Assembly: GCF_903819435.1 (NCBI RefSeq)
Contig: NZ_CAIJDP010000060.1
Coordinates: forward strand, 1 to 64,000
DNA from: Flavobacterium salmonis
Lineage (GTDB): Bacteria > Bacteroidota > Bacteroidia > Flavobacteriales > Flavobacteriaceae
DNA: 64,000 nucleotides
Direction: 5' to 3'
Shown here: in pieces, positions 16,773 through 41,669 of the stretch
Layout: each line of letters opens with the position of its first letter
Position numbering within the stretch: position 1 is the stretch's first letter
Made by a program: the position numbers and the translations under genes
The notes under the pieces: model-generated
What the model was told of the DNA's origin: nothing
Database searches by the model: none
Seen by the model: only the letters and a program-made list of their open reading frames with translations

Positions 16773-17556
16773 ACACATTATCAGAATTTTGAATTCAACA
16801 AATTAGGCTCTATTGAAAGCATTGGCAACACACAAAGTACTTTTATAATGGCCGAAATAAAAAATCTTCACAATATTAATGTAGAGAGCTAAATTAATGC
16901 ATTTAAAGGAATTGCTATATATGATTTACAAGAACCTTTTTTCCAGATAAATTTTAAATGTTTAGAGTTTCAAAAACAAATTATGTTAAGCAAAATTAAC
17001 ATAAAAAGTGTTAAAACAAACTTTCACAGCAAATGATAATTTTCTGAATATTTTCTAGACACTGTCCTAAAAAGAAGTGAATTATTTTTTACCTGATACT
17101 ATCAATCGAGATTAAACCTTTTGTTTTTTTTAGTCTTCAACTCATAATTACGACGATTTTCTGTCAAAACCTCAGTCTATTAGAGTGTTAACCTCTCTAA
17201 CTGCGTGCGAATTTTCTTCAAAAAAATTCTCTTCTCATTTGTAAAAATACCTTCCAATATTCTTTTTTTTACATTTTTCTATAATTTTCTCTAAAAAGCA
17301 GGAGCATTTTAATCATAATCGCCTATAAATACAGAGAACACAAAGCCTTACAAATACTGGAATTTACATATTTTTCAAATATTAACATATAAATTATAAT
17401 ATCAATATTTATTATAGATATAAAAAACACATACTAAAAAAAACAGGATAGTGCAGGATAGAATTAGCAACAGAACCTTTTAGGTTTGACATATTCGTAT
17501 TTACTAAAAAAAAGTTAAAACTAACTGACCTTTTCAATATAATAAATTAACCAAGA
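16773..17556. other. Long AT-rich intergenic region upstream of the FAS1-SusCD operon
   Basis: No gene is visible over about 780 bases. A short open segment at about 16786-16892 ('NKLGSIESIGNTQSTF') may be another unrecognised relic. From 17000 on, the DNA is very AT-rich with long A and T runs and should hold the operon promoter. A TTTG at about 17489 lies upstream, but I see no convincing TAnnTTTG at the right spacing. Confidence 0.5.
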
Positions 17557-19770
17557 ATGAAGAAAAAAATACACCATCTACTTATCTTTTCATTTTTAGT
17601 CCTTCTCTCAAGTTGCAGTAAGGATGCTTATGATGATTACTACGAGCGACCTGACTCTTTAGAACCTCCTATCTACCAACAACTAGAAGCTCGTGGAAAT
17701 TTTAAAAATCTTCTGGTTTTAATTGAAAAAGCCGGATACAAGGATATCTTAGGTAAAGCAGGATATTGGACCATGATGGCTCCGAATGATGAGGCATTTA
17801 CGAAATTTTTTCAAGAGCAGGGTATTTCAGATGTAAATAAAGTTGATGCTGAAACTGCTTCAAAAATTGTAAAATATGCTCTCATATACAATGCTTTCCG
17901 TGCAGATCAGCTTTCTGACTATCAATCAGGTACGGGATGGGTTCCGGATAATGCCTTTAGAAGAAGAACTGCCTTTTACGATGGCTTTCAAAACAAAACC
18001 ATAAACGGCAAACCCATGGTTGTTGTCGGATCTAACAGAAATGGAGGTTATCTTTCAGGAGACAATAATAACAAATATATCTCTTATTTTGAAAAAGAGT
18101 ATTTTGCCGCAAAGGGATTAACTTCGAATGACTACAATTTTTTCTTTCCAGGTTCAACTTATACCGACTTTAATTTATTAGGTGGAAGTGTAAAAGAAGC
18201 AGATATTGTGGCTGAAAATGGAATTATCCACGAAGTTACCAAAGTATCACTTCCTTTGGTAAATTTAGATCAGTATTTAGAAAACAACAGTCAGTACAGC
18301 CAATTCCGTAAGTTACTTGAGGACAATCTGGTTATTTATGCATTTAACCAATCTGCTACTACAACCTACCGTAATTTTTCTGGCAAAAACGACGATGTTT
18401 ATGTAAAATACTATGACCCCACTTTGCCTTATTCCCCTAATAATGAAAACTTTTTAAAGCAGGCAGATAATGATGGGCAGAGTGATGCTTATACCCTATT
18501 TGCACCTGATAATACATCTTTACAAAAATTCATTGACGAAGTTTTACTTAAGAACTATCCTTCAATTGATAAACTTCCTCAATATATTTTTCAGGATTTA
18601 TTTAAAGCACACATGGTACAGGGTGCTGTATGGCCATCAAAATTAGGTTCATTTAACAACGGTTTGGATGAAGAATTAAGATTCAACTTAAATACAGATG
18701 TAAAAGAAGCCAAAGTATTAAGTAATGGTTTCTTTTACGGAACTAACAAAGTACAGGCGTCAAATTTATTTTACAGTGTGTACACCTCAGCTTATCTGGA
18801 TCCTAAATTTACTTTAGCTACACGATTGTTTAATGATGGTTCTTCATACAGGGAAATTATCAGCAATATCAATCAAAAATACACCTTGTTTCTACCTTCG
18901 GATACAGTATTACGTGGACTTGGATATGAGTACAATACGGCCAGATCCGAATGGAATTATGTATCTCCAATTAATGGTGCTGCTTTATCAGGAACACCAG
19001 CCAGACTGCGTTTACTGCGTGTTTTATACAATTGTATTGTCCCTACACCTAATGGAGAACTAAATGATTTGTCAGGTTCCGGAATTATACGAACAGGAGA
19101 CATGGATATTCCCGGTGAATACATTAAATGGAGCAATAACAAACTCTATGCTGCAGGAAATGAAGTTTTGAATAACATGGTTAATATTCTTGGATATGAA
19201 GATCAGCAAAACGGACGTACTTACTATATTGACAAATTACTTGAATTTAGTGAAGAAACTCCAGGAACAGACCTTAAAAATTTAGCTGTTGCAGGATCAG
19301 AATATTTTAATTTCTATAGTTATTTAAAAAACTCTAATATCTATACCACAGCTGGTGACAAAATCGCAGGAGTGAACGTTGGTAACTCATACACGTTTGT
19401 TGTCCCGAACAATGCAGCCATTATACAAGCTGTGAAAGATGGGAAACTTCCAGGAAACCCTGCAACCGGTGTGCCTAATTTTGCTCCTTCTTTACTTGGT
19501 GACCAAGATCAGGTAGCAGATTTTATAAGGTATCATATATTGGTCAACAAAACTGTTTCTGACGACGGACTTGAAGCAGGACAAATTGAAACTTTAAGAA
19601 AAGACAGTAAAGATGAAAAAACTTACGTAAGTGTCATGAGTGATACTGGAGTCTTGACTTTTATTGATAAATCCAACAGATCTGCCAATTTCATTGCAAA
19701 CAAAAGTAACAACCTGGCTGACAGAACCTTAATCCATTTAGTAGACAACTATCTTTTATATACGGAATAA
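17557..19770 (+). CDS. Fasciclin (FAS1) multi-domain surface lipoprotein
   Basis: A lipoprotein signal peptide (MKKKIHHLLIFSFLVLLSSC, lipid Cys20) leads into four FAS1-like modules over 737 residues, at about 45-235, 245-410, 415-570 and 575-737. Module one shows the hallmarks well: 'YWTMMAPNDEAFTKF' and 'AENGIIHEVTKV'. The later ones are more diverged ('YTLFAPDNTSLQKFIDE', 'YTLFLPSDTVLRGLG' and 'YTFVVPNNAAII'). FAS1 domains mediate adhesion or ligand binding in other systems. In Bacteroidota they often sit next to SusC/SusD. This is the first gene of a seven-gene operon: its stop codon is one base from the SusC start. It is probably displayed on the cell surface through lipid export. The ligand is unknown. 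Confidence 0.9.
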   Translation: MKKKIHHLLIFSFLVLLSSCSKDAYDDYYERPDSLEPPIYQQLEARGNFKNLLVLIEKAGYKDILGKAGYWTMMAPNDEAFTKFFQEQGISDVNKVDAETASKIVKYALIYNAFRADQLSDYQSGTGWVPDNAFRRRTAFYDGFQNKTINGKPMVVVGSNRNGGYLSGDNNNKYISYFEKEYFAAKGLTSNDYNFFFPGSTYTDFNLLGGSVKEADIVAENGIIHEVTKVSLPLVNLDQYLENNSQYSQFRKLLEDNLVIYAFNQSATTTYRNFSGKNDDVYVKYYDPTLPYSPNNENFLKQADNDGQSDAYTLFAPDNTSLQKFIDEVLLKNYPSIDKLPQYIFQDLFKAHMVQGAVWPSKLGSFNNGLDEELRFNLNTDVKEAKVLSNGFFYGTNKVQASNLFYSVYTSAYLDPKFTLATRLFNDGSSYREIISNINQKYTLFLPSDTVLRGLGYEYNTARSEWNYVSPINGAALSGTPARLRLLRVLYNCIVPTPNGELNDLSGSGIIRTGDMDIPGEYIKWSNNKLYAAGNEVLNNMVNILGYEDQQNGRTYYIDKLLEFSEETPGTDLKNLAVAGSEYFNFYSYLKNSNIYTTAGDKIAGVNVGNSYTFVVPNNAAIIQAVKDGKLPGNPATGVPNFAPSLLGDQDQVADFIRYHILVNKTVSDDGLEAGQIETLRKDSKDEKTYVSVMSDTGVLTFIDKSNRSANFIANKSNNLADRTLIHLVDNYLLYTE

Positions 19771-19771
19771 A

Positions 19772-22700
19772 ATGAAACAAAATCTAACCAATTTACTTTA
19801 CCGTTTTTCATTTGCTTTGATTATTCTGGCAGCACTGCCGTCATTGGCTCAGGATTCTAAAAATGCCTTAGTGCGTGGTCAGATTGTCGACTCAAGTGAT
19901 AATTTACCAATTCCTTCAGCTACTATCGTTGAACAGGACTCAGAAAATCGTACCGTTGGAGGTGTTTTATCTGACATAGACGGAAATTTTGCAATACATC
20001 TAAAAAACCCAAATAATAAATTATTAATTTCAACTATTGGATATAAATCGAAAGTGGTTTCTGTTAACGGCAAAACCACAATAAAAATTGCTTTAGTTTC
20101 TACTATAACTTCTTTGGACAACGTTGTAGTTACAGGACAAAAAAAGGTAGAAACCGGACTACTTAACATTGCCGATAGAAATAAAACAACCAGCTCTGTT
20201 ACTATTAAAGCAGCAGATATAGCTAACTCTCAGGCTGCTTCTATTGATGAGCAATTACAAGGACGTATTGCAGGTGTGGATATTATTTCATCAAGTGGTG
20301 ACCCTGGTGCAGGAATGCAGATTAAAATCAGGGGAGCTTCTTCAATTTCAGGATCTTCAAGCCCTTTAATCGTTGTTGACGGAATGCCTTATGAAACCTC
20401 TATCCCGGCAGATTTTAACTTTGGTACTGCTGATGATGATGGTTATGCAGCATTACTAAATATTGCTCCTTCGGATATTGATACCATCACCATCGATAAG
20501 GATGCAGCAGCAACTGCTTTATGGGGGTCACGCGCAGCAGGTGGTGTTATTATCATCAATACGAAGCGTGGTGGAATCAGTGCTCCAAAAATTAGCTACA
20601 CTTTTGTAGGTACTCGTTCAAAAGTTCCTGATGCAATTCCGATGTTAAACGGAGATCAATACTCACAATTGATTCCGGAAGAATTCATGAACCGAAACGG
20701 TGTGCCTTTAAACACACAAAATATTAAAGAATTTCAATACGACCCTCAGGAGGTTTATTATTACAAAAACTATAGTAACAATACCGACTGGACAAAAGCA
20801 ATATCTCAAATTGGTCTTATACACGATCACAACCTTTCTTTACAAGGCGGTGGACAAAGAGCAAGATATTTCAGCTCAGTAGGGTATTACAACTCTAAAG
20901 GAGTAACTATAGGTACTGGCTTTGAACGAATCAGTACTCGTTTAAATTTAGATTATGTAGTTTCAGACCGTATTCGTTTTAAAACTGATATAGCGTATAC
21001 ACATTCCAGTACAGACCGTAATTATGTCAATAATTTTTCGGGTACTGACAAGGATTTACTTAGAAGTGTTTCCTACGGAAAAATGCCAAACATGGGAATT
21101 TTTGAATATGATCAATCCGGAGTTCTTACTCCTAACTATTTCTCTCCGGCCCAAAACGTTCAGGGAGGATACCCAAGCACTTATAATCCTGTTGCTATGG
21201 CGGAATTTGCTACTAACAATCAGGTAAGTGACAGAGTAGTACCCCATTTTAACATCAATGTTGATATTATACCAAAAAAATTAATCTCAACATTTGATCT
21301 ACAATTTGATTTTAACAGTACAAAAGCGAAATCTTTTCTGCCTCAAAATGCTACAGGACGTCCAATTACAGAAACAGTAGTTAACAGAGCTTCTGATGTG
21401 GATGTTGATATGGCTAATATAACGACCAAAACCAATTTCATTTACACCCCTGATCTTGGTGAAAAACAAAATTTATCGGTACTTTTATCTTTACAATCGA
21501 ATGATTCCCGTTACGAGTCACATCAGGTAATTACCTCGAACACAGCATCATCTTTACTTACAGATCCATCCAATCCGTCAAGAACACAAAATTCAGAATT
21601 AAATTTATATACCAGTAATAGCCAGACAAGAACTGTTGGTAGTTTATTGAATGCGCAATATGGTTTATTAGACCGTTATATTCTAAACGTAGGTTTACGT
21701 GCAGATGGTAATTCAAGATTTGGTCAGGAAAACAGATACGGCTTATTTCCTTCGGCATCTGCGCGTTGGAGAATTTCAGGAGAATCTTTTATGAAAAATG
21801 TCAGTTGGATTGATGACCTTAGTTTAAGACTTAGTTATGGACAATCAGGAAAAGCTCCTAGGTATGATTACCTTTATTTCAATGTGTATGGAAATTACAG
21901 CACAGAATACTTAGGACTTAACGGCGTATATCCTCAAAATATTCAACTGAGTAATTTTCGTTGGGAAACCCTGATTGGAAAAAATTTAGGATTCAATCTT
22001 CAAATGTTTAATAAGCGTGTTACACTGGATGCAGAATTTTACAGAAACACCACAAAAGACATGATTTTCCTGGATCTTGATATCACCACCGTTTCAGGAT
22101 ACAGCAAAATGGATCAGAATGTTGGGACTATGGACAACCAGGGATGGGAATTAGGTCTTTTTACTACACCAATTAAATCTGGTAAGTGGAAAGTAGAATT
22201 CAATTTTAACATTGCCAGCAATGAAAATATGATTCGTGAAATTTCTCCATACTTCCCTAATGAAAGTGGAAATACGGATCGTAATGGAGAATACAAACGT
22301 TTTCTTCAAAAAGACAGCCCTTTTGGATCATTCTACGGATATAAATTCAAAGGAGTTTATACTGACAAGGAAGCAACTCTGGCAAGAGATGCAAATGGAA
22401 ATGTAATTACAGGTCCAAATGGACAAACGGTGTATATGCGTTTTAATTATCCAAATACCGACTATACTTTTCAACCTGGTGATGCTATTTATGAGGACAT
22501 CAATAAAGATGGTAACATAGACAGTCGTGATGTGGTATATTTAGGAAACAGTAACCCTAAATTTACAGGTGGATTTGGCCCTAATATAATTTTTAACAAC
22601 CAGTTCAAATTATTACTGTTCTTTAACTTTCGTATGAATTATGATATTGTAAACGGAACGGATATGACCACAACCAACATGTATGGATGGGGTAATCAAA

Positions 22701-23056
22701 GTACAGCAACATTATCGAGATGGCGTAATCCTGGTGATGTAACCGAAATGCCAAGAGCAATTTACGGAGCAGGGTATAACTGGTTAGGATCTGACCGATA
22801 TGTAGAAGATGCTTCTTTCCTTCGCCTTCGTTCGGTTACTTTTAGTTATTCTTTTGGAAAAAAACTTTTAAAAAGTTTAAGAATGGATGAAATAAGAACT
22901 TATGTAACTGCAGACAATTTATATACATGGACAAACTATAGAGGTCAGGATCCTGAAGTGAGTATGAAAGCCGGAGATCCATTCGGAATTGCTATTGACA
23001 ACTCCAGAACTCCTCCTACAAGTCGTGTATCATTAGGTATTACAACACGTTTCTAA
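19772..23056 (+). CDS. SusC/RagA-type TonB-dependent outer-membrane transporter
   Basis: A signal peptide (FALIILAALPSLAQ, cleaved near residue 27) is followed by a carboxypeptidase-D regulatory-like beta-sandwich at about 34-115 ('GQIVDSSDNLPIPSATIV'). The plug is at about 140-255 ('IKIRGASSISGSSSPLIVVD', 'DIDTITIDKDAAATALWG', 'GVIIINTKRG'). The remaining ~840 residues form the 22-strand barrel, ending in Phe (GITTRF). Length is normal for the family. There is no STN signalling domain. Partner genes surround it: a FAS1 lipoprotein starts the operon one base upstream and SusD follows after 16 bases. SusC/SusD pairs import oligomers such as glycans or peptides with TonB energy. The substrate here cannot be named. 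Confidence 0.95.
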   Translation: MKQNLTNLLYRFSFALIILAALPSLAQDSKNALVRGQIVDSSDNLPIPSATIVEQDSENRTVGGVLSDIDGNFAIHLKNPNNKLLISTIGYKSKVVSVNGKTTIKIALVSTITSLDNVVVTGQKKVETGLLNIADRNKTTSSVTIKAADIANSQAASIDEQLQGRIAGVDIISSSGDPGAGMQIKIRGASSISGSSSPLIVVDGMPYETSIPADFNFGTADDDGYAALLNIAPSDIDTITIDKDAAATALWGSRAAGGVIIINTKRGGISAPKISYTFVGTRSKVPDAIPMLNGDQYSQLIPEEFMNRNGVPLNTQNIKEFQYDPQEVYYYKNYSNNTDWTKAISQIGLIHDHNLSLQGGGQRARYFSSVGYYNSKGVTIGTGFERISTRLNLDYVVSDRIRFKTDIAYTHSSTDRNYVNNFSGTDKDLLRSVSYGKMPNMGIFEYDQSGVLTPNYFSPAQNVQGGYPSTYNPVAMAEFATNNQVSDRVVPHFNINVDIIPKKLISTFDLQFDFNSTKAKSFLPQNATGRPITETVVNRASDVDVDMANITTKTNFIYTPDLGEKQNLSVLLSLQSNDSRYESHQVITSNTASSLLTDPSNPSRTQNSELNLYTSNSQTRTVGSLLNAQYGLLDRYILNVGLRADGNSRFGQENRYGLFPSASARWRISGESFMKNVSWIDDLSLRLSYGQSGKAPRYDYLYFNVYGNYSTEYLGLNGVYPQNIQLSNFRWETLIGKNLGFNLQMFNKRVTLDAEFYRNTTKDMIFLDLDITTVSGYSKMDQNVGTMDNQGWELGLFTTPIKSGKWKVEFNFNIASNENMIREISPYFPNESGNTDRNGEYKRFLQKDSPFGSFYGYKFKGVYTDKEATLARDANGNVITGPNGQTVYMRFNYPNTDYTFQPGDAIYEDINKDGNIDSRDVVYLGNSNPKFTGGFGPNIIFNNQFKLLLFFNFRMNYDIVNGTDMTTTNMYGWGNQSTATLSRWRNPGDVTEMPRAIYGAGYNWLGSDRYVEDASFLRLRSVTFSYSFGKKLLKSLRMDEIRTYVTADNLYTWTNYRGQDPEVSMKAGDPFGIAIDNSRTPPTSRVSLGITTRF

Positions 23057-23072
23057 AAAAAAAAATTGATTT

Positions 23073-24587
23073 ATGCGAACTACAATAAAATCTACAATAG
23101 CAATCCTTCTAATTTTTGTTACTGCAACATCTTGTGACAATTATTTAGATTTAAAACCTGAAGACGGAATCGTACGTGAGGAATTCTGGAAAACTAAAGA
23201 AGACATCCAGGCTGCCGTTATAGGAATCTATTCTTCATTATTAAAAAGACCTCCTGGAGCGCAAATTCCAACAGGGGGAACCGATTATAATATCAGTGAA
23301 TACTTGTTTATGTATGGAGAAATCAGAGCCGATATGATAACTCCGGGAGGAAATATTACAGAAGAACAAAGAGATATTACAACTTCAAATATCCTGTCAT
23401 CGAACGATTTGACAAGCTGGGCCGCATTTTACCGTGTTATCAATTACTGTAACACTGTTATTGAACTCGCCCCTGCTGTAAGAAATAGTGATCCAACTTT
23501 GACACAAACACAATTGAACAATTTTCTTTCTGAGGCTTTAGCCATCAGAGCCTATATGTATTTTACCCTGGCCCGTACTTTTAAGGATGTACCTCTTAAA
23601 CTGACTGCAACACTTTCTGACAAGGATAATTTTCAAATAGCAAAAACACCACAAAATGAAATTTTTGCACAAGTTATCAAAGATCTTATTTTAGCTGAAG
23701 AGTATGCCGTTGTCGATTATGGAAATGCCGCTTCTAATAAAGGAAGAATTACAGTTTATACAATTAATGCTATGCAGGCTGATGTTTATCTTTGGATGGA
23801 TAAATATGCCGAAGCTCTGGCTGCAGCTACTAAAGTGACTGATTCAGGTAAATTTGAATTAATTCCTGCTTCCAATAGCTGGTTCAATAATGTATTTGCT
23901 GTTGGAAATACCACTGAGAGCATTTTTGAGTTTCAATACACGAAACAAAACCTTAATCCGTTTTACGACATGTTTTTTCAAAGACCGGAATTCCTGGCAG
24001 CTCCACATGTAATAGAGGATGTATTTGGTATTGACTTTAACAATCCGTTGAACAGGGATGTAAGAGGTGAAAGATGCGCTTTGGTTCCCGGACTTAATTT
24101 TATCTATAAGTACACCGGACTTAACAACAATGATTTTAAAACTTCACAAGAATCTGACACACATTGGTTTGTATACAGATATTCAGATGTTTTACTTTTA
24201 AAAGCAGAAGCTTTAACGCAATTAGGTGAAGGAGATAAAGCCCTTATTATTATCGATGATATCCGTACCAAACGCAAAGCCATCAGTTCAACTTCACAAA
24301 CCGTGACTACTACAAGCAAATCAGAAATGACTGATTATATTTTAGCAGAGCGAGCCCGCGAATTTGCTTATGAAGGAAAGAGATGGTTTGATGTTCTGCG
24401 AAATGCCCGAAGAAATAATTATGAGCGCTTAGATTTATTGATTAGTATGGCACTGATTAGCGCTCCGGCAGATCAGCAGCAATCTATTATAGCTAAACTT
24501 GAGGATCCAAATAGTCATTATTTGCCTATTAATGAATACGAATTATATACTAATAAAGCACTTGTTCAAAATCCATTTTATAAATAA
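23073..24587 (+). CDS. SusD/RagB-family surface lipoprotein
   Basis: The lipobox ends at Cys21 (LLIFVTATSC). The sequence has the SusD signatures: 'NYLDLKPEDGIVREEFWKTK' at the N-terminus, 'EALAIRAYMYFTLARTFKDV' in the TPR-like helices, and 'YILAERAREFAYEGKRWFDV' near the C-terminus, ending 'YLPINEYEL..NKALVQNPFY'. At 504 residues the length is usual. SusD acts as the lid on its SusC partner, here the gene 16 bases upstream. The next gene begins 7 bases downstream, supporting a single transcript. Confidence 0.95.
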   Translation: MRTTIKSTIAILLIFVTATSCDNYLDLKPEDGIVREEFWKTKEDIQAAVIGIYSSLLKRPPGAQIPTGGTDYNISEYLFMYGEIRADMITPGGNITEEQRDITTSNILSSNDLTSWAAFYRVINYCNTVIELAPAVRNSDPTLTQTQLNNFLSEALAIRAYMYFTLARTFKDVPLKLTATLSDKDNFQIAKTPQNEIFAQVIKDLILAEEYAVVDYGNAASNKGRITVYTINAMQADVYLWMDKYAEALAAATKVTDSGKFELIPASNSWFNNVFAVGNTTESIFEFQYTKQNLNPFYDMFFQRPEFLAAPHVIEDVFGIDFNNPLNRDVRGERCALVPGLNFIYKYTGLNNNDFKTSQESDTHWFVYRYSDVLLLKAEALTQLGEGDKALIIIDDIRTKRKAISSTSQTVTTTSKSEMTDYILAERAREFAYEGKRWFDVLRNARRNNYERLDLLISMALISAPADQQQSIIAKLEDPNSHYLPINEYELYTNKALVQNPFYK

Positions 24588-24594
24588 TTAAGTC

Positions 24595-26286
24595 ATGAAA
24601 AGATACGCTGCATTCCTAAAATTGATGAGACTTACTTTAGTGGTTTTTTTAACCCTGGCATTTCTTAACTGTACTTCTGAAAAAATCAATGAACGAACTG
24701 ATGAAACAGTAAACATTACTGATTTTTTAAGACAAAATGATGAATATTCCATGTTCCTGGAAATGTTAGAACTTACTAACTATTCTTCATTCATGAATAC
24801 TTATGGTACCTACACTTTATTCCTGCCAAGCAACAATGCGATAAAAAACTATTTAACTGATGTTGGTGCAGCTGCTGTAAAAGACGTACCATTAGAAGAT
24901 TTAAAAGAACTTGTAAAACTGCATATTCTTGATCAGGAAGTAGCTACTACAGCATTTACTGATGGTAAAATTGCAACTCCGAGCCAGCAAGGACAATTTA
25001 TTATTACCGGGGCTGCCAATGTTGGCGGAATTTCAAGCATCACTGTTAATAAAACATCCCGAATTATGTCTTCAAATGTAAAAGTAGGAAACGGGATAAT
25101 CCATATAATAGATAAAGTATTGCGTGTTGCCGATAAAACTTTGGCCCAGACTATTGAAGCTGATCAATCACTTTCATTATTTACCGAAGCTTTAAAAGCA
25201 ACCGGATGGTATGACAAATTAAATATGCCGTTAACTTCGACTACTGTTGAAGGAAAAACAACACTTTCAGGACATTTGACTGTATTAACAGAAACAAATG
25301 AAGTATTCAAAGCAGCCGGTATCAATAGTCTTGCTGATTTAAAAGCAAAATACAGTCATCTAAACGATCCTTTAAATCCTGAGGACAGTCTGAATCTTTT
25401 TGTAAGCTACCGTGTTTTACCAAAACTTCAATACTTAGCTGATTTAGCTGTTTCTCCATCACTTGAAACCAAAGCACCACTGGAAGTAATTAGTGTAAAA
25501 CTGGCTACAGGTAAAATTTTACTAAACGAGGAAACTTTTAATGGTGTTTTAGAAAAAGGAATTCCGGTAAACCGTACAGGAAGTGATGTAACAACTTCAA
25601 ACGGAGTGGTTCATACTGTTGAACAGAATTTCTTTATCAAAAAAAGAAACCCGGCTCCGGTTTATTTTGACTTGGGTGACCAACCGGAATTCAGAAAACT
25701 GAGTGCTGTTTTTAGAAAACCGGGTAATTATGTATCGCTTGCCAAATCACTTTTTACAGAAGTAACCTGGGATGGTGTTGATGCCCTTACTTATGTTTGT
25801 GCTGCTAAAGGAAGTTCCAGCTATCAGGATCGCGCATGGAAAGGGGATGTAATTGAAATATTCCGTTTTAGAAATGGTAATACTCAAAATATTGCTTTTA
25901 AAACACCGGTCATTATAAAAGGTAAATACAAAGTTTGGGTATCTTACAGATGGAAAAGCGCTAAAAACCCAACAGTTAGAGCTTATTTTGATGGTGTTGC
26001 ATTGCCAAGGCTGATTAACTTTCAGGAACAAGGCGTTAATAATATTGACGAAAGAGTATTAGAGTCACAAGGTTATAAAAGTCATATTGATCCATTTACC
26101 AATAGATTTAACAGCAGGCTTTGCGGTGTTATCGATGTACAAACAACAGGACGACATACTATAACCTTTGAATCACTTTCTAATCCTGGAGATACTGCAT
26201 GGATGGATGTCGTGGAATTCCGACCAATAAATATGGATCAACTGTATCCTAGACTTAAATCTGGAGGAGAAGGTTTTGTGGAGTAA
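24595..26286 (+). CDS. FAS1-domain lipoprotein with C-terminal beta-sandwich domain
   Basis: The lipid Cys is Cys26 (VVFLTLAFLNC). Two FAS1 modules follow, about 45-185 ('YGTYTLFLPSNNAIKNYL', 'GNGIIHIIDKVL') and 185-350 ('GVVHTVEQNFF'). The last ~200 residues are different. They look like a jelly-roll carbohydrate-binding-type domain: 'ALTYVCAAKGSSSYQDRAW', 'GKYKVWVSYRWKS' and 'RHTITFESLS...AWMDVVEFRP'. No catalytic motif is seen. The gene starts 7 bases after SusD and is followed after 53 bases by a third FAS1 lipoprotein. A surface-exposed ligand-binding role beside the SusCD pairs is the simplest inference. Confidence 0.88.
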   Translation: MKRYAAFLKLMRLTLVVFLTLAFLNCTSEKINERTDETVNITDFLRQNDEYSMFLEMLELTNYSSFMNTYGTYTLFLPSNNAIKNYLTDVGAAAVKDVPLEDLKELVKLHILDQEVATTAFTDGKIATPSQQGQFIITGAANVGGISSITVNKTSRIMSSNVKVGNGIIHIIDKVLRVADKTLAQTIEADQSLSLFTEALKATGWYDKLNMPLTSTTVEGKTTLSGHLTVLTETNEVFKAAGINSLADLKAKYSHLNDPLNPEDSLNLFVSYRVLPKLQYLADLAVSPSLETKAPLEVISVKLATGKILLNEETFNGVLEKGIPVNRTGSDVTTSNGVVHTVEQNFFIKKRNPAPVYFDLGDQPEFRKLSAVFRKPGNYVSLAKSLFTEVTWDGVDALTYVCAAKGSSSYQDRAWKGDVIEIFRFRNGNTQNIAFKTPVIIKGKYKVWVSYRWKSAKNPTVRAYFDGVALPRLINFQEQGVNNIDERVLESQGYKSHIDPFTNRFNSRLCGVIDVQTTGRHTITFESLSNPGDTAWMDVVEFRPINMDQLYPRLKSGGEGFVE

Positions 26287-26339
26287 TAATCACACAAGCA
26301 ATTGAAAAGCATTCTAATCAAAATTTTAATCATCTAAAA

Positions 26340-27815
26340 ATGACCATATCAAAATTAATTAATAAAAAACTTTTTGCTGGCATTGTGACATTAGCATTAT
26401 TTTCGTGTTCTGATCCATGGTCAGACCGGGAAAATAATGGAGATGACAACCTAAATATCACTCTTAGCGAAGCCATCGCGAGCAACCCGGAAACATCAAA
26501 GTTTGCAGAATTGTTAGTACAATCAGGTTATGACGAAATTTTGTCGGGCTCAAAAACTTATACTGTTTTTGCTCCTACAAATGAAGCCATGACTCAGGTC
26601 GACGCTTCGCTATTAAATACTCCTGAAAAGGTTACTGCTTTTGTACAAAACCATATTGCACTAACAGCCTATTCTTCTATAAGAAAAGATGCCTCAGAAA
26701 AAATTAAAATGCTGGGTTCTAAATATTTGCTATTTAAAGGTAATGCAACAATTGGTGATGCCACTATTGTTACCGCCGATAAATATGCTGCAAATGGTGT
26801 TTTTCATATTATCAACCGTTCACTTGCACCAAAAAAGAATATTTGGGAATACATCAATTCGCAAACAGCTTCTTCTTCAATGTGTAATTATCTGGTAAGC
26901 TTAAATGAATTAAATATTTACGATTCTGACATTACTGCGAAAGAAAATGCTGTCCCTGGGGTGCTTGCAGATTCCTTAAGTAATTCTTTTTTAAAAAATG
27001 TATACAATGTAAACAACGAAAAGAACTCTTACACACTATTTTTAATTGAAGATGAAGGTTATAATGCTGAAGTAGATAAACTCAGGCCGTATCTAAATAA
27101 ATCAACTGCAGATGCTACCACAACATATTCCAGCTATTTCACGGTGAGGGATATGGTTTTTCCTAAAGCGTATATACCAAATGAATTACCAGACAAATTA
27201 ACTTTAACTACCCGTTTTGGAGTGAAAGTAGAGATAGACAAAACCCAAATTGTGGGAGAACCTGTTATTTTGAGTAACGGGATCGTTTACCGCATGAAAA
27301 AAGTAGATGTTCCGTTGACTGATCGCTTAGTTACCACTAAAATAGAAGGAGAAGATAATACTTCTTTCTCCCCTTCTAACTTACGCAGCAAGATTTTTTA
27401 CCGTGAGCAAAAGGATCTTAAAGGTATTTTTTTCAAAGATGTTATGGTATACAATTCAGGAGTATCATTGTTTCAGCTGAATTACAAAGCAACCGATTTA
27501 TTTAGTACTAAATACGACGTATACTGGAGGGCCACTAACATCAATAATTACAGTTCAAATGCTACCGTTTTTCAACAAAGGTTAGTTGTAGGAAGAGTGA
27601 TTAGGGATGGTGTAGAATATCCAAACGAGGTTATTAAAAATTTTGATTTTAAAAACGTTGAAATCGGTGTTTATGATGACGTGTATTTAGGAGAATTCAC
27701 CTTAACAAACGCTCAGGATATTGAGAGAATTACCCTCTATGGAGCCAATACAACTACAGTAGGTAATAACACCATGATCCTTGATTATTTAAAATTTGTT
27801 CCTGTCGTTAAATAA
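26340..27815 (+). CDS. FAS1-domain lipoprotein with C-terminal beta-sandwich domain (second copy)
   Basis: The lipobox ends at Cys23 (LALFSC). FAS1 module one lies at about 38-175 ('SKTYTVFAPTNEAMTQV', 'ANGVFHIINRSL'). A diverged second module covers about 178-330 ('NSYTLFLIEDEGY', 'VILSNGIVYRMKKVDVPL'). The C-terminal ~155 residues form a beta-rich domain ('LFSTKYDVYWRATN', 'IERITLYGANTTTVG', 'MILDYLKFVPV') with the same general layout as the previous protein, though sequence similarity is low by eye. It is followed after 18 bases by a second SusC gene. Architecture and position suggest a paralogue of the preceding gene adapted to the second SusCD pair. Confidence 0.87.
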   Translation: MTISKLINKKLFAGIVTLALFSCSDPWSDRENNGDDNLNITLSEAIASNPETSKFAELLVQSGYDEILSGSKTYTVFAPTNEAMTQVDASLLNTPEKVTAFVQNHIALTAYSSIRKDASEKIKMLGSKYLLFKGNATIGDATIVTADKYAANGVFHIINRSLAPKKNIWEYINSQTASSSMCNYLVSLNELNIYDSDITAKENAVPGVLADSLSNSFLKNVYNVNNEKNSYTLFLIEDEGYNAEVDKLRPYLNKSTADATTTYSSYFTVRDMVFPKAYIPNELPDKLTLTTRFGVKVEIDKTQIVGEPVILSNGIVYRMKKVDVPLTDRLVTTKIEGEDNTSFSPSNLRSKIFYREQKDLKGIFFKDVMVYNSGVSLFQLNYKATDLFSTKYDVYWRATNINNYSSNATVFQQRLVVGRVIRDGVEYPNEVIKNFDFKNVEIGVYDDVYLGEFTLTNAQDIERITLYGANTTTVGNNTMILDYLKFVPVVK

Positions 27816-27833
27816 TATTTTATAAAAATAGAT

Positions 27834-30800
27834 ATGTTAAAAAATTTACAACTAACCTGTGCAATAAGCATCTTCCTTGCCGGAAGCCTTAGTGTATCCC
27901 TATATGCTCAAAACGTTCAGGATTCAACTGCAACTACTGTAACTGCTCCTAAAATAAAAAAGGGAATAATAGTAAAAGGTATTGTTAAAGATGCCAAAAC
28001 TAAAGCAGGTTTATCAGGGATAAATGTAGTAGTTAAAGACTTTTCTGCAGCCATTACCAATGATGACGGTAGTTTTGAAATCAATGTACCTGATTTACAA
28101 GCGCTGTTGACTATAAGCGGACAGGAATTCCAAACCAAAGTCTTTCCTCTTAAAAACAGAAATTCAGATTTAGAAATATTTTTGTACGAAGCGTATTATT
28201 CTCCTATTTACCAAATAGCCAATTTACCTACCGGAACTGAATTCCAGTACGGAAGCACCAAAGCGGTAAATGTGGTTAATTTTAAAACCAATCAATGGTC
28301 CAGTCCCATTAAAGAGTCTGTTGGCGATTTTCTTCAGGGAAGAGTAGCCGGTCTTAACAGTATTAGAAGATCCGGAGTTCCGGGATCAGGGGCTTATTTA
28401 AACCTTCGCGGTTTTACTTCTTTGTATGGAACAAATAAACCGTTGATTATTGTTGACGGAATGATTTATGACGATGAAGATTATGGTTCCGGAATTATAC
28501 AAAACAACTCTTCCTCTCCTTTGGATAATCTGGACGTAAAAGACATTGAAAATATCACTGTCCTTAAAGATGACAGTGCGCTGTATGGAGCCAAAGGAGC
28601 TAACGGTGTACTTATTATCAATACCACGCGTCCGACAGAACTGACTACAAAAATTGATTTTACGATGTACGGGAGTGCCAATCAGACACCTGACCAATTA
28701 CCGGTTATGGGTGCAGATGCCTACCGTACACATATTTCGCAGTTAGAAGCTACTCGCGGACTTTCTCAGGATCAAATTGCGGCTCTTCCGTATATGAATG
28801 ACAATCCTCTGCTTCCGGGATATTACAAATATCATAATGAAACCAACTGGCAGGATAAAATTTTCAAGTCGAGTGTTAGCCAAAACTATTTCCTTAAAGT
28901 GCGTGGAGGGGATGATATTGCAAAATATGGTTTGTCTGTGGGATATCTTAATAATCAGGGAATTGTTGAAAACACCGAATCAAAACGTTACAGCACCCGT
29001 TTAAATGCAGCTTTGCGTTTAACTGAAAAGCTTTATGTAGATGCCAACATGTCTTTTATCAATAATCTTCAGGAACAGAGAGATCAGGGATTTGCTTACA
29101 AAACCAGTCCAATTTATCTGGGTCTTACAAAAGCACCTTTTTTAGCAGCCAATGCTATAGATGATGCCGGAAATGTTTCTCCAAACCTGGCAGATACGGA
29201 TGATTTTAATGTCAGCAATCCAAGAGCTATACTAAATGACGGAATTGGAACCAACAAAAACTATCGTTTCTTTGGAAACCTGAATTTTAAATATACAATT
29301 AATAATGCATGGAATGTAAATACCCTTTTTGGACTTACTTACAACAAAGAGCGCGAAATTTTCTTTATTCCGGACAAAGGAGTAGCCGATGTTATTCTCC
29401 CTACTGCAATAGCTAAAAACCGTTCCGGTAGTGAGGTACAAATTTTAAACAGCATTTATACTGATACTTACGCCAATTACTTTAAGAAATTTAAGGATGA
29501 TCAGCAAGTAGATGTTCGTTTTGGTTTTAGAACACAAAGTAATCATTCTGAAAGTGATTTAGGTTTGGGATACAATTCTGCTACTGATGATTTTACAAGC
29601 GTAGGAGCCGGATCTAACCTATTGCGCCAGGTTGGAGGAGCTTTAGGAGAATGGAATTGGCTAAACATATATGCCAGTGCAAATTACAATTACCATAATA
29701 AATACTTCCTGACAACCAGTTATGCGGTTGATGGTTCAAGCCGTTTTGGAGATAAAGAGAACGGGAATAATAAGTTCTCTCTTATGACGGCTATAACAGG
29801 AGCATGGATGGTTTCTGCTGAAAATTTCATGAAAAATTCAAAAACCATTGATTATTTAAAATTGAGAGGAACAATCAGTGAAGGCGGTAATGACGATATC
29901 GGAAATTTTACAGCTCAAAAATATTATGTTTCACAAAACTTATTGGGTGTACAAGGTTTGGTAAGTGGTAATATTGGAAATCCAAACCTGCAGTGGGAAA
30001 CCGTTAAAAAATTTAATGTTGGTGCTGACTTAGGTTTGTTTAATGAACGTATTAATCTTTCTATGGATTTTTACAGAAAGAAAACAGAGGACATGATTGT
30101 TTATGAATCTGTTAGCAATGTAACCGGTTTTGATTATGTAGTTTCAAACAGTGGTCAAATGAAAACTTTAGGGGCAGAATTATCTTTGAATAGCCGTGTA
30201 ATAAGTTCGCCAGATTTTACTTTTGATTTTGGACTGAATTTAGCCACATATAAAAATAAGGTACAAACCCTTCCAAATGGTGATATCCTGACTCAGTTTG
30301 GTGGAGCGACATATATTACCTCAGTAGGAAATGATGCTAATTTATTTTATGGTTTAAAAACTAATGGTGTATATTCTACTACTGCAGATGCCAACGCTGA
30401 CGGATTTTCAAAACGTTTAAGTAATGGTCAATTAGTTCCTTTTGCCGGTGGAGATATGCGGTTTACAGACACAAACGGTGATAAAGTAATTGATGATAAA
30501 GACCGTATGATAATTGGTAATCCAAACCCGGATTTAACAGGAAGCATTACAACTAATTTTACCTATAAACGCTTCAGCCTACAGGGACTATTTACTTTTT
30601 CAGTAGGAAACGACCTTTATAATGGGGTACGCTACAACCTTGAAAAGATGAGTGGATACGAAAACCAAAGTACTGCTATAGCAAACCGCTGGAGAGCCGA
30701 GGGACAACAAACTGATATACCAAAAGCTACATGGGGAGATCCTATGGGAAATGCCAGTTTTTCTGACCGATGGATCGAAGACGGTTCTTACTTAAGGTTA

Positions 30801-31019
30801 AAAACTTTAGTATTGGGTTATGATTTTAATGTCGAAAAAATGAATTATATAAAAGCCATAAAAATTTATGCTACTGCCAATAACTTGTTTACACTGACAG
30901 ATTATCTGGGCTATGATCCAGAATTCAGTGCGACCTCATCTATATTTGGTCAGGGTGCAGATATCGGATTAGCACCTCAGTTTACAAGTTTTCAATTAGG
31001 ATTACGTTTAGGCCTTTAA
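27834..31019 (+). CDS. SusC/RagA-type TonB-dependent outer-membrane transporter (second of operon)
   Basis: A signal peptide (ISIFLAGSLSVSLYAQ) is followed by a Ser/Thr/Lys-rich linker, a carboxypeptidase-D-like domain at about 45-125 ('KGIVKDAKTKAGLSGINVVV') and a plug at about 150-265 ('LNLRGFTSLYGTNKPLIIVD', 'DIENITVLKDDSALYGAKGA', 'GVLIINTTRP'). A normal-length barrel ends at residue 1061. It has no STN domain. It differs clearly from the first SusC of the operon, so this is not a recent duplication. SusD follows after 27 bases. Substrate unknown. Confidence 0.95.
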   Translation: MLKNLQLTCAISIFLAGSLSVSLYAQNVQDSTATTVTAPKIKKGIIVKGIVKDAKTKAGLSGINVVVKDFSAAITNDDGSFEINVPDLQALLTISGQEFQTKVFPLKNRNSDLEIFLYEAYYSPIYQIANLPTGTEFQYGSTKAVNVVNFKTNQWSSPIKESVGDFLQGRVAGLNSIRRSGVPGSGAYLNLRGFTSLYGTNKPLIIVDGMIYDDEDYGSGIIQNNSSSPLDNLDVKDIENITVLKDDSALYGAKGANGVLIINTTRPTELTTKIDFTMYGSANQTPDQLPVMGADAYRTHISQLEATRGLSQDQIAALPYMNDNPLLPGYYKYHNETNWQDKIFKSSVSQNYFLKVRGGDDIAKYGLSVGYLNNQGIVENTESKRYSTRLNAALRLTEKLYVDANMSFINNLQEQRDQGFAYKTSPIYLGLTKAPFLAANAIDDAGNVSPNLADTDDFNVSNPRAILNDGIGTNKNYRFFGNLNFKYTINNAWNVNTLFGLTYNKEREIFFIPDKGVADVILPTAIAKNRSGSEVQILNSIYTDTYANYFKKFKDDQQVDVRFGFRTQSNHSESDLGLGYNSATDDFTSVGAGSNLLRQVGGALGEWNWLNIYASANYNYHNKYFLTTSYAVDGSSRFGDKENGNNKFSLMTAITGAWMVSAENFMKNSKTIDYLKLRGTISEGGNDDIGNFTAQKYYVSQNLLGVQGLVSGNIGNPNLQWETVKKFNVGADLGLFNERINLSMDFYRKKTEDMIVYESVSNVTGFDYVVSNSGQMKTLGAELSLNSRVISSPDFTFDFGLNLATYKNKVQTLPNGDILTQFGGATYITSVGNDANLFYGLKTNGVYSTTADANADGFSKRLSNGQLVPFAGGDMRFTDTNGDKVIDDKDRMIIGNPNPDLTGSITTNFTYKRFSLQGLFTFSVGNDLYNGVRYNLEKMSGYENQSTAIANRWRAEGQQTDIPKATWGDPMGNASFSDRWIEDGSYLRLKTLVLGYDFNVEKMNYIKAIKIYATANNLFTLTDYLGYDPEFSATSSIFGQGADIGLAPQFTSFQLGLRLGL

Positions 31020-31046
31020 TTATTTTACACTTAGATAAGAATACAG

Positions 31047-32789
31047 ATGATGACAATTAGTATAAAAACAAAAAAAAGCATTCTATTAGGAATACTGGCT
31101 CTAACATTTAGCCTGAATTCCTGCTCTGACTATCTGGATGTGCAGCCTGAAGACAAGCTTATTGAAGAGCAAATGTATCGTAATATATATGATGCTGATG
31201 CCGCTGTAATGGGGGTTTACGGAAAATTTATGGCACTTGCAGAGAAAAACGTTATTTTGAATGAAATGCGTGCTGACCTGATGACAACAACCAGAAATTC
31301 AAGTCCATACCTTAAAGAAATTTCAGAACATAATGTTTCAGCTGACAACCCGTATGCCAATCCTAAAGATTTTTTTGTGGTGATTCAAAACTGTAATAAT
31401 GTGCTTAAAAATTTCGATATGATGCTCGAAAAAAAGCGTTTTACTCAGGAACAGTATGACCAGCGTTACTCTGATGTGGGAGCAATTCGCAGCTGGGTTT
31501 ATCTTCAGTTAGGAATTCACTATGGAAACATTCCTTACATCACAGAACCTATTGAAACAATAGAAGATGCAAAAAACATTTCTAAATATCCCCGCATACC
31601 ATTTAATCAATTATTAGATCAATTGATTTTATTTACCGAAAATTTGCCTTATAAGGATTTATATGCTTCAGGAAGTTCTTTGGTAATTACCATTGACGGC
31701 TACAATACAGCTAAATTCTTTATCAACAAAGAATGTTTGCTGGGTGATTTACATCTTTGGAAAGGAAATTACAATGCTGCTGCTATACATTACAAAAATG
31801 TTATGGAAACCGGAACTAAAGGAGGTACAGATACAGAACTATATAATACTTACAGGGTAAAATTTGCAGAGGTTACAACGCATGACGATTTAGCGGTTGG
31901 TTATTTAAGATATTCTGAACAAGACGCTACAACCTTAATTAATAGCAATACACAAGGCTGGAGATCCATTTTTGCCAGGGACAGAGATGCATTATGGAAC
32001 ACAGAATGGATTTGGTCTTTGCCTTTCGAAAATAATTTTGCTCCTAAAAACCCATTTATCGCTTTATTTTCGAGCAAAAATGGCGATTATCTAGTCAAAC
32101 CATCCAACACAGCTATTGCTCTATGGGACAATCAGAAACAAAGTAATGATATCCCTTACGATGCACGTGGACCAAAATTCACCTATAATATTATAAATGG
32201 CGATCCCGTAATTATGAAATACCTTTACAGCAGTGAAGCAGTAGCTACAACCGGAATTGGTAATACAAAAGGGCAATGGTTTTTATACCGTGCAGCTAAA
32301 TTACATCTGCGTTATGCAGAAGCTGCCAACAGAGATAACCAGCAAAAAGTAGCTTATGCTATTTTAAACAATGGAATAAGAAGGGCTTATACTCCAAGTC
32401 CTGCACCTACAGATGTTACTGATGTACAGCAAACCAAATTGCCATTCCCATATGATTTCGATGCCCGTATGGGGGATTATCCATTTTATAGAGCAAACTG
32501 GCATCGTAATGATGGAATTCGTGGCCGTGCTTTCATGAAATTTGTCGGAGCAGTTGGAGATGATGTAATTACGACCGAAAACAATATTATTCAGGAAGAC
32601 GCATTAGAATTAGCTTACGAAGGAAACCGTTGGGAAGATTTGGTTCGTGTAGCTTTACGCCGAAATGATCCATCGTTTTTAGCTGAAAAAGTATACCAAA
32701 AACTGAACAGTGAAGGAAACAGTAAAGCAGACGAAGTACGTTCTAAACTGATGAACGTTAACAATTGGTATTTGCCATTTAATTGGTAA
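31047..32789 (+). CDS. SusD/RagB-family surface lipoprotein (second of operon)
   Basis: The lipobox ends at Cys26 (ALTFSLNSC), followed by 'SDYLDVQPEDKLIEEQMYRN'. Internal SusD landmarks include 'VGAIRSWVYLQLGIHYGNIP' and 'LHLRYAEAANRDNQQKVAYA', and the C-terminal 'EDALELAYEGNRWEDLVRVA'. It ends 'VNNWYLPFNW', the usual type of ending. At 580 residues it is longer than the first SusD. Two ATG codons in tandem open the gene; the first is used here. It is the last gene of the seven-gene operon, and a strong terminator begins 15 bases after the stop codon. Confidence 0.95.
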   Translation: MMTISIKTKKSILLGILALTFSLNSCSDYLDVQPEDKLIEEQMYRNIYDADAAVMGVYGKFMALAEKNVILNEMRADLMTTTRNSSPYLKEISEHNVSADNPYANPKDFFVVIQNCNNVLKNFDMMLEKKRFTQEQYDQRYSDVGAIRSWVYLQLGIHYGNIPYITEPIETIEDAKNISKYPRIPFNQLLDQLILFTENLPYKDLYASGSSLVITIDGYNTAKFFINKECLLGDLHLWKGNYNAAAIHYKNVMETGTKGGTDTELYNTYRVKFAEVTTHDDLAVGYLRYSEQDATTLINSNTQGWRSIFARDRDALWNTEWIWSLPFENNFAPKNPFIALFSSKNGDYLVKPSNTAIALWDNQKQSNDIPYDARGPKFTYNIINGDPVIMKYLYSSEAVATTGIGNTKGQWFLYRAAKLHLRYAEAANRDNQQKVAYAILNNGIRRAYTPSPAPTDVTDVQQTKLPFPYDFDARMGDYPFYRANWHRNDGIRGRAFMKFVGAVGDDVITTENNIIQEDALELAYEGNRWEDLVRVALRRNDPSFLAEKVYQKLNSEGNSKADEVRSKLMNVNNWYLPFNW

Positions 32790-32803
32790 AACTATTTTTA
32801 GAG

Positions 32804-32840
32804 AGGCTTATAGATATTGAAATATTTATAAGCCTTTTTT
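32804..32840 (+). terminator. Strong terminator of the FAS1-SusCD operon
   Basis: AGGCTTATA-GATATT pairs with AATATT-TATAAGCCT across a GA-centred loop (32804-32835), then six T. The stem is long and nearly perfect, and lies directly after the last SusD gene. Confidence 0.9.
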
Positions 32841-33491: not shown

Positions 33492-34136
33492 TTAAAAATC
33501 CAAAACAAAATCCTTTGAAGCACATTTGTTGAAAAAAGCAGCATTAAATTTATACAGTTTATCTCCTTTTTCAGAAACATTTTCTTTTTTTTCTTTCAAA
33601 GGGACTACTACTTTCTGCTTTAAAAAATTTCTGCTAAAACTATCCTTATCCGTTTCTATGCCCAAAATTCCCTTATAAAGATTCATTAATTCTGATATCG
33701 TAAATTTCTCCGGCAGAAGATTAAAATCAACAGGAGACTCACGAACACATTTTTCTAACTGATACAAACTATAATCTAAAATTAAATTGTGATCCTGAAT
33801 TAAATCAGGTACATCTGTAATCATAAACCATCTTTGGTATAAATCAACTACACCAAATTTCACCCGATAATCTTCAATATTAATAACCGTGTAATATCTT
33901 AAAGTTTGAGAATTTGTACCGGCTCCCTCTGTCAGCTGTTTCAGGAACACATTTTCAAAATTACCAAATTCATTCAGTAAATCCAGGGCAGTCTCATCTG
34001 CTTTTTTAGCATCCTTAGCAATTCCGGATATAAGCCCCCATTTTGTCCCTACTCCTTTATTCCCCTTAGATAAGAGCACCTTAAGGCTTCCGTTATCATA
34101 GCCGAAAACAACACAATCAATCGTGACCTCATTCAT
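33492..34136 (-). CDS. Nudix-fold transcription regulator with winged helix (NrtR-like)
   Basis: The N-terminal ~135 residues form a Nudix fold ('IDCVVFGYDNGSLKVLLSKG', 'WGLISGIAKDAKKADETALD'). The C-terminal part is a winged-helix domain ('FTISELMNLYKGILG', 'DSFSRNFLKQKVVVPLKEK'), as in the NrtR/AraR-type regulators. The Nudix box is degenerate: where active enzymes have RE-x-x-EE, this protein reads LDLLNEFG, so hydrolysis is unlikely and ligand sensing is the probable role. In Bacteroidota such proteins regulate sugar or NAD genes, often next to their targets. The nearest candidates are the FAS1-SusCD operon, which is convergent, and the genes upstream on its own strand. Target and ligand are not shown by the sequence. 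Confidence 0.8.
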   Translation of the reverse strand: MNEVTIDCVVFGYDNGSLKVLLSKGNKGVGTKWGLISGIAKDAKKADETALDLLNEFGNFENVFLKQLTEGAGTNSQTLRYYTVINIEDYRVKFGVVDLYQRWFMITDVPDLIQDHNLILDYSLYQLEKCVRESPVDFNLLPEKFTISELMNLYKGILGIETDKDSFSRNFLKQKVVVPLKEKKENVSEKGDKLYKFNAAFFNKCASKDFVLDF

Positions 34137-41618: not shown

Positions 41619-41669
41619 TGTGTTTGATATTTTAATGAAGAAATTTATAATTCGTTATTTAGATTTAAA

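Follow-up and report, generated by a model that had tools for sequence, protein, structure and literature searches.

The seven genes at positions 17557-32789 of the window, which is the whole 64,000-nucleotide stretch of Flavobacterium salmonis DNA analysed here, probably encode cell-surface machinery that captures fragments of rhamnogalacturonan-I (RG-I), a plant pectin, and imports them. They form an operon that is conserved as a set of seven, lies within RG-I loci in some relatives and has a promoter element in common with RG-I and rhamnose genes elsewhere in the genome. We consider it likely that the operon is the capture-and-import part of a dispersed RG-I/rhamnose regulon, with the FAS1 lipoproteins acting as surface glycan-binding proteins.

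All seven open reading frames are uninterrupted and lie on the + strand. The first encodes FAS1_A (17557..19770), a lipoprotein of 737 aa with several FAS1 modules. It is followed by the TonB-linked outer-membrane transporter SusC1 (19772..23056; TIGR04056, 704 bits) and the lipoprotein SusD1 (23073..24587; PF07980/PF14322). Two further lipoproteins come next: FAS1_B (24595..26286), which has two FAS1 modules and a C-terminus with weak similarity to DUF5108, and FAS1_C (26340..27815), with FAS1 module(s) and a C-terminal part, in the position of BT4167 of Bacteroides thetaiotaomicron. SusC2 (27834..31019; TIGR04056, 642 bits) and the lipoprotein SusD2 (31047..32789; PF07980) complete the set. 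The gaps are 1, 16, 7, 53, 18 and 27 nt, and the sequence-only reading, which had described a seven-gene operon of these families with gaps of 1-53 bases and a strong terminator at its end, was right on each of these points. The intrinsic terminator is a hairpin with a T run at 32800..32839 (+ strand; -19.3 kcal/mol, z -6.06), matched by none of 200 shuffles; a consensus terminator scan did not detect this hairpin. The seven genes are under purifying selection, with dN/dS of 0.05-0.23 across all of them (window vs genome G529).

The three FAS1 proteins score 88.3, 87.9 and 72.1 bits against PF02469 (FAS1; cut-off 22), and the Cys at residue 20 of FAS1_A is the same in all 14 aligned sequences. 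The earlier count of about eight FAS1 modules agrees with what is seen by eye (4+2+2), while Pfam marks six stretches (3+2+1 in FAS1_A, FAS1_B and FAS1_C). Beta-sandwich C-terminal domains, also claimed for two of the proteins, are unproven. The C-terminus of FAS1_B in the window reaches 14.3 bits against DUF5108, below the cut-off of 27.4 (among FAS1_B members 12/15 have E<=0.05, the best being 2.9e-6), a Pfam search found no second convincing family in FAS1_C, and the predicted models of FAS1_B and FAS1_C, built from 4-row alignments of the window and related loci, are too poor for use (pLDDT 48.5 and 37.8).

The same seven-gene order, below called the cassette, is present in 22 further complete sets, which come from the family of the window, from a second family in the same class and from Bacteroides. 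A search of relatives for FAS1 genes and SusCD pairs in unrelated places did not refute the grouping: the order is kept also in loci chosen through SusD2 or an adjacent lyase, independently of FAS1, and the suggestion that the grouping is not accidental is supported. The count of 22 omits two sets of B. reticulotermitis and three of A. ginsenosidivorans with broken frames and G613, where the contig ends inside the set; it includes G691, whose FAS1_C was missed by ORF calling and recovered by tblastn, and contig C41 of Bacteroides sp. 224, though its FAS1_C slot (573 aa) has no profile match and gave no match at 1e-5. Identity between the cassette proteins of the window and those of B. faecis is low (21-36%). 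Positional counterparts nevertheless outscore paralogues in comparison with B. faecis set 1: for SusC1 1025 vs 458 bits, for SusC2 771 vs 393, for SusD1 356 vs 82 and for SusD2 154 vs 38. FAS1_C matches its counterpart there at 53 bits.

Animal FAS1 domains mediate adhesion, and the closest solved structures to the FAS1 proteins of the operon are periostin and TGFBI. The FAS1 proteins could on this ground be adhesins or matrix proteins that are co-transcribed with the transporters by chance. We regard this as very improbable: the three cassette FAS1 genes accompany the same two SusC/D pairs in every complete set, whereas nine FAS1-only loci of the window's family contain none of 15 query families (polysaccharide enzymes, rhamnose genes and HTCS), and the FAS1 trees track the SusC/D trees (Mantel r 0.907-0.978, 16 loci).

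Nine of the 22 complete sets, two of them in the window's genus, have RG-I or rhamnose genes nearby. In B. faecis the cassette directly precedes a PL9 rhamnogalacturonan lyase, which is 95% identical to the chain of 5OLQ, a structure that we take to be BT4170, and in Bacteroides sp. 224 a cassette is likewise followed by PL9. In G205 it is placed inside a locus with two GH28, GH88/105, PL22 and GH106, while its neighbours are two PL9, GH88/105 and a rhamnose mutarotase in G159, and GH106 and rhamnose genes in G441. The two members of the window's genus, G632 and G588, have homologues of PL11, GH28, GH105 and GH43 beside the cassette. The flanking DNA examined around the other 13 sets has no clear RG-I or rhamnose gene, as in the window. 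G115 is placed among these 13 despite a GH88-family match of 28.8 bits, just above the Pfam cut-off of 26.6, and a weak PL11-like match (72 bits); its flanks also encode GH2, GH43, GH30_2 and a sulfatase. Seen from the lyase side, cassette FAS1 genes occur in the DNA examined around only 4/80 PL9 loci.

In three genomes the order is kept among other genes, which counts against the RG-I reading. The flanks contain a fucosidase, sulfatases, GH97 and HTCS in G121, sulfatases, HTCS and an alginate-lyase-family protein in G002, and HTCS, an esterase and a GH78-type rhamnosidase in G173.

The window itself has two SusC/SusD pairs and no linked carbohydrate-active enzymes. Among its 37 ORFs of >=90 aa, none matches the 15 query families at E<=1e-20, and the statement that degradative enzymes are absent is true locally for polysaccharide enzymes. 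Such enzymes are present on contig C79 of the same genome, in a locus with PL11, GH106, two GH88/105, an esterase, RhaM and rhaT-rhaD-rhaI-rhaK homologues; a GntR-like protein is encoded next to rhaT (C79:322757-323794). This locus has two SusC/D pairs of its own, so the cassette is not the sole importer available. The cassette may instead import a different glycan, from plants or algae, that has sugars in common with RG-I (for example arabinogalactan side chains or sulfated rhamnose or galactose glycans), and may have come under the control of the same rhamnose-linked regulon. The flanks of G115, G121 and G002 listed above fit such a substrate; the genus members with linked enzymes, however, have PL11, GH28 and GH105 homologues, and RG-I lyases or GH106/GH28 accompany the cassette in Bacteroides, G159 and G205. 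We consider another glycan rather unlikely. RG-I is the probable ligand in the window's species.

The operon and the enzymes have a promoter element in common, CAGGATAG-N2-CAGGATAG followed after 19 nt by the -7 type box TANNTTTG, which in the window lies at 17444..17488 (+ strand) and ends 68 nt before the start of FAS1_A. Its repeat has no mismatch, and the RG-I/rhamnose genes of C79 sit behind the same element. With the 19 nt spacing it is found upstream of the cassette in 9/9 genus genomes checked, the window included. It is important to note that this spacing was first noticed in the window, C79 and relatives and that the genome-wide test came after; some sites in the nine genomes were already known, so the test, in which 51 of 78 other sites are no more than 25 kb from a GH106 or RG-lyase (RGL11) gene (2.9 expected), is not fully independent. 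The reversed pattern gave no site in 10 genomes, and the pattern tried first (TTTG or TTGG, 18-24 nt, TANNTTTG) had no match in the 600 bp preceding the operon. The element is a putative activator site.

A second copy (34224..34268, - strand, 1 mismatch) is located upstream of a gene for a NUDIX/NrtR-AraR-type regulator (33492..34136, - strand; PF21906, PF19368), which is convergent to the operon and about 700 bp downstream of it. Among the loci compared, a homologue adjoins the cassette elsewhere only in G127 and G645, with a copy of the element at the same place and 0 mismatches. It is possible that the NUDIX protein is a member of the regulon or its regulator. The claim that no regulator is present is right only in part: none of the 37 ORFs matches HTCS, but this regulator-type gene lies close by.

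These data also bear on the idea that the operon is an orphaned, decaying relic whose enzymes have been lost. Such a relic would agree with a window devoid of RG-I enzymes, but seven open frames with low dN/dS, a promoter repeat free of mismatches and enzymes encoded elsewhere in the genome make this explanation hardly credible. Nor do the RG-I/rhamnose genes near 9/22 sets and those of C79 behind the same element support the earlier view that the lack of enzymes indicates a different kind of system.

Cassette and RG-I enzymes also occur together across genomes. GH106 of the BT4145 type is present in 8/8 cassette genomes against 22/387 others in a draw of 395 genomes from the phylum, and the RGL11 lyase in 8/8 against 12/142 in 150 genomes of the genus; the numbers of cassette genomes are lower bounds (up to 3 SusD candidates per genome were scored in the phylum draw and 9 in the genus). 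GH10 xylanase, used as a control, is commoner in cassette genomes too (7/8 vs 33/142, genus), so lifestyle accounts for part of the co-occurrence. The association with RGL11 persists among the 40 GH10-positive genomes (7/7 vs 11/33, p 0.0017), and among the 20 RGL11-positive genomes there is no GH10 association (p 1.0); the p values are from Fisher tests that ignore phylogeny.

In the dispersed RG-I/rhamnose regulon that we favour, the three FAS1 lipoproteins would hold RG-I or its fragments at the surface and the two different SusC/SusD pairs would take up fragments of two classes. The lyases, glycosidases and esterases, together with rhamnose catabolism, would be encoded elsewhere, on C79, and switched on together with the operon through the common promoter element. 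Contact between the FAS1 domains and the glycan is predicted. A broader reading is put forward tentatively, at somewhat less than even chances: FAS1 could be a Bacteroidota-wide RG-I-binding surface fold in a fixed seven-protein machine. This machine could separate from its enzymes and change its place in the genome, as a compact promoter element read by a regulator would hold transporters, lyases and rhamnose catabolism together as one regulon. Polysaccharide utilisation loci (PULs) are usually recognised by enzymes adjoining SusC/D. In the window the transport half is on its own, with a promoter element that points to partner genes elsewhere, and orphan SusC/D operons could be assigned in this manner. 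For FAS1 domains a bacterial role is proposed, the capture of glycans during pectin uptake, in both environmental and gut Bacteroidota.

In the Sus/PUL paradigm a SusC/SusD pair works with surface glycan-binding proteins. The operon resembles it in having SusC-SusD pairs and extra surface lipoproteins, and differs in that two pairs and three FAS1 lipoproteins form one enzyme-free block of seven genes. Maribacter arabinogalactan PULs and the B. plebeius sulfated AGP system were dropped as counterparts, 'fasciclin' being absent from the main texts. B. thetaiotaomicron BT0267-BT0273 (arabinogalactan) was dropped as a seven-gene match because BT0267 is an HTCS regulator according to the published text available. 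Pectin proteomics of F. johnsoniae reports induced SusC/D clusters and does not name FAS1 in the text available (PMC8056085).

The closest system is the RG-I locus BT4145-BT4183 of B. thetaiotaomicron, whose genes BT4163-BT4169 probably have the seven-gene order of the window, judging by B. faecis as a stand-in. The available text of a review gives the SusC/D pairs BT4164/65 and BT4168/69 as importers and BT4170 as lyase, and calls BT4167 a surface protein that binds RG-I; the B. faecis layout agrees with the BT4164-BT4170 layout published there (PMC8002723). Another source groups BT_4163-4165 in PUL77 (PMC13088901). The sequence-only suggestion of surface capture by the FAS1 lipoproteins gains support from this, since in Bacteroides the corresponding locus is one for RG-I and BT4167 is called RG-I-binding. 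Unlike in B. thetaiotaomicron, the window genes are apart from the enzymes, have no HTCS match and use a different promoter element; a scan of B. faecis stretches did not find the repeat. In the HTCS_Rgu-2 regulon, as far as the available text describes it, rhamnogalacturonan-activated BT4145-83 are under a direct-repeat element that also governs a distant gene (PMC3878776). Common to both systems is a direct-repeat element associated with rhamnogalacturonan genes, a distant member included, but the HTCS_Rgu-2 motif is given there as two 14-bp sites with a 6-bp spacer, whereas the window has two 8-bp boxes with 2 bp between them, 19 nt from TANNTTTG.

The operon proposed by the sequence-only reading was confirmed as seven open reading frames on the plus strand at 17557-32789, in the order FAS1_A, SusC1, SusD1, FAS1_B, FAS1_C, SusC2 and SusD2, separated by 1, 16, 7, 53, 18 and 27 nt and followed at 32800-32839 by a hairpin with a T run (−19.3 kcal/mol, z −6.06). 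Each of the three FAS1 and two SusD proteins of the window begins with a lipobox-like sequence. Because the paralogues share only 30.5% (SusC1/SusC2), 31.0% (SusD1/SusD2) and 26.6% (FAS1_B/FAS1_C) identity, the halves of the operon are old and not a fresh duplication. dN/dS of the cassette genes between the window and genome G529 is 0.046–0.233. Directly past the terminator, at 32952-33362, a small secreted-looking protein without Pfam family is encoded; small ORFs of 143 aa (G588) and 141 aa (G691) lie at the matching position. Elsewhere in the window, the minus strand at 332-8896 encodes two large proteins, 1347 aa and 1477 aa long, in which DUF5977 and fn3 are accompanied by weak RHS repeats, and a second SusC/D locus (38829-51606) carries an M16 peptidase, two DUF4369-thioredoxin proteins, a FecR anti-sigma and an ECF sigma factor. 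Homologues of the genes of this second locus adjoin the cassette in G127 and G645 too.

The grouping of FAS1 genes with SusC/SusD pairs had been proposed not to be accidental, and neighbourhoods across Bacteroidota bear this out: the order is kept whether loci are picked by FAS1_A, SusD2 or a PL9 lyase. The window's genus and family are taken here to be Flavobacterium and Flavobacteriaceae. FAS1_A, by which the family and phylum loci were picked, has some match in 63 of 199 same-family genomes (the window's genome counted), mostly short FAS1 matches; long matches occur in six other genomes, and all six have the full order, with FAS1_B doubled in one. The FAS1_A profile matched 25 of 395 phylum genomes at 1e-10, and long matches, the window's aside, are found in seven (G127, G529, G391, G340, G441 (twice), G205 and G229), again all with the full order. 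When SusD2 was used, the cassette was found in 8 of 150 genus genomes; in the six new ones it is complete in five and ended by the contig end in one. Cassette FAS1 genes are also present at 4 of 80 named loci picked by the PL9 lyase. Specifically, B. faecis (L216-L217) has two complete cassettes back to back within one RG-I (rhamnogalacturonan-I) locus, Bacteroides sp. 224 has two, the FAS1_C slot of one giving no profile match, and the cassettes of B. reticulotermitis and Arachidicoccus ginsenosidivorans have broken frames. Complete cassettes outside the window thus number 22 (13 + 5 + 4). Trees of the seven proteins from 16 loci are concordant (Mantel r 0.907–0.978, 21 pairs), for which shared descent accounts in part. 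Moreover, in all seven trees one of the two G441 cassettes is closest to that of G229 and the two B. faecis cassettes are closest to each other. Copies that move as whole sets argue for the cassette being a functional block.

The surroundings of some of the cassettes point to RG-I. In B. faecis, cassette 1 lies directly 5' of a PL9 gene, which encodes a protein sharing 95% identity with 5OLQ, a rhamnogalacturonan lyase chain; PL11 and two homologues of GH88/GH105 proteins (PF07470 in Pfam; hereafter GH105) are found within about 12 kb of it. Around the cassette there are two GH28, GH88/105, PL22, GH106 and an esterase in G205, and two PL9, GH88/105, GH43, a sulfatase and rhamnose mutarotase in G159. 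The G441 C13 cassette is near a GH106-type rhamnosidase, with RhaT, RhaD and RhaM above the NCBIfam cut-offs and rhamnose isomerase and weak rhamnulokinase matches under them; rhamnose-gene homologues are also near the G229 cassette. In the window's genus, G632 and G588 have GH105, GH28, GH43, sulfatase and PL11 homologues at one side. Altogether PL9, PL11, GH106, GH105, GH28, PL22 or rhamnose genes surround 9 of the 22 complete cassettes (both of B. faecis, Bacteroides sp. 224 C41, G159, G205, G229, G441 C13, G588 and G632). None of these was found in the compared flanks, which vary in length, of the other 13 (G127, G529, G391, G645, G718, G691, G115, G121, G002, G173, G340, G441 C9 and Bacteroides sp. 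224 C35). Among these 13, G121, G002 and G173 all have HTCS, the first two together with sulfatases and the third with an esterase and a GH78-type rhamnosidase, and G340 and G718 have an esterase. The cassettes of G121, G002 and G173 (L040-L042), with HTCS nearby and, in the first two, sulfatases, form a diverged lineage that probably serves another substrate. None of the 15 query families (enzymes, rhamnose genes, HTCS) was found at nine FAS1-only control loci. By eye, FAS1-only lipoprotein genes in the window's family (L043, L045-L048, L050) repeatedly adjoin CTP synthase-, YidC- and MnmA-like genes.

The window belongs to contig C60 of its genome, G000, in which RG-I genes are on another contig, C79: PL11 carrying a type IX tail, GH106, two GH88/105, an esterase, GH43, GH2, a rhamnose mutarotase homologue, two other SusC/D pairs and consecutive homologues of rhaT, rhaD, rhaI and rhaK. 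BT4145-type GH106, counted at E<=1e-100 (above the curated cut-off in 2 of 395), occurs in 30 of 395 phylum genomes, including 8/8 with the cassette (Fisher 4.3e-10). Among the 150 genus genomes, RGL11 is found in 8/8 cassette genomes versus 12/142 others (p 2.4e-8) and GH106 in 8/8 versus 25/142 (p 2.6e-6); the GH10 control gives 7/8 versus 33/142 (p 4.0e-4). RGL11 matches beginning at profile position 1-6, a split spotted post hoc after the search, are in 6/8 cassette genomes versus 0/142 others (p 2.0e-9).

The cassette and the C79 genes share a promoter element. An alignment of the sequences 5' of nine genus loci, the window among them (G613, whose sequence ends too early, was left out), shows shared CAGGATAG-NN-CAGGATAG-like boxes, ending 91–103 nt before the start codon. 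Exactly 19 nt past the repeat all nine have TANNTTTG, the −7 promoter box of Bacteroidota. With up to 3 mismatches G000 has 42 copies of the repeat versus 7 of the reversed pattern, and the sole mismatch-free copy is at the cassette operon. On C79, repeats with 2–3 mismatches, not all with TANNTTTG at 19 nt, lie 49–82 nt 5' of PL11, the esterase, a GH43 homologue, GH106, a SusC and rhaT. The composite element (1 mismatch) occurs at 87 sites across nine cassette genomes and at 2 in G589, a genus member lacking the cassette, one of these 2 being 11 kb away from the GH106 gene of that genome; the reversed pattern has none in these ten genomes. With the nine cassette sites set aside, 51 of 78 have a GH106 or RGL11 gene no more than 25 kb away (expected 2.9), a count for which G529 and G391 contribute just one known GH106 match each. 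Repeats with 1–3 mismatches also precede FAS1_A in G115, G159, G205 (four copies), G340 and G441 C13, and among G115, G159, G205 and G441 C13 the 19-nt spacing is seen only in G159; in three B. faecis stretches scanned the repeat was not found. Further copies of the element are at G000:C89:284220 and C84:6511, one 5' of a second GntR-like gene and the other without a downstream called ORF. From these sites we infer that the cassette and the RG-I/rhamnose genes may be induced together. Candidate regulators are the NUDIX protein at 33492-34136, whose gene has a copy of the element in the window, G127 and G645, and a GntR-like protein (by eye) divergent from rhaT, with relatives that other genomes encode in their RG-I or rhamnose regions.

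Genes, gene order and the shared element are the observed parts of the mechanism that we propose. Most likely, C79 lyases, predicted to be secreted, would cut RG-I at the cell surface, where the FAS1 lipoproteins would hold it, and the fragments, presumably of two classes, would enter via the two SusC/D pairs. It is likewise most likely that GH105, GH106 and others, putatively periplasmic, and the rhamnose genes would complete the breakdown.

Searches of the open-licence literature for FAS1/fasciclin with SusC/SusD, PUL or rhamnogalacturonan gave no paper on the cassette among the matches listed, and the authors of the primary RG-I paper may have noted FAS1 domains. Among the matches listed, PMC10199937 contains all terms of one such search, and in excerpts of a FAS1 review (PMC6032426) the string 'bacteroid' is found a single time, within a citation about root nodules. 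A search with the letters of the promoter motif gave no evident link among the matches listed. As to B. thetaiotaomicron, excerpts of PMC8002723 assign RG-I binding at the surface to the protein BT4167, import to both BT4164/65 and BT4168/69, and the lyase role to BT4170, and according to an excerpt of PMC3878776 the RG-I locus BT4145-83 is activated by rhamnogalacturonans.
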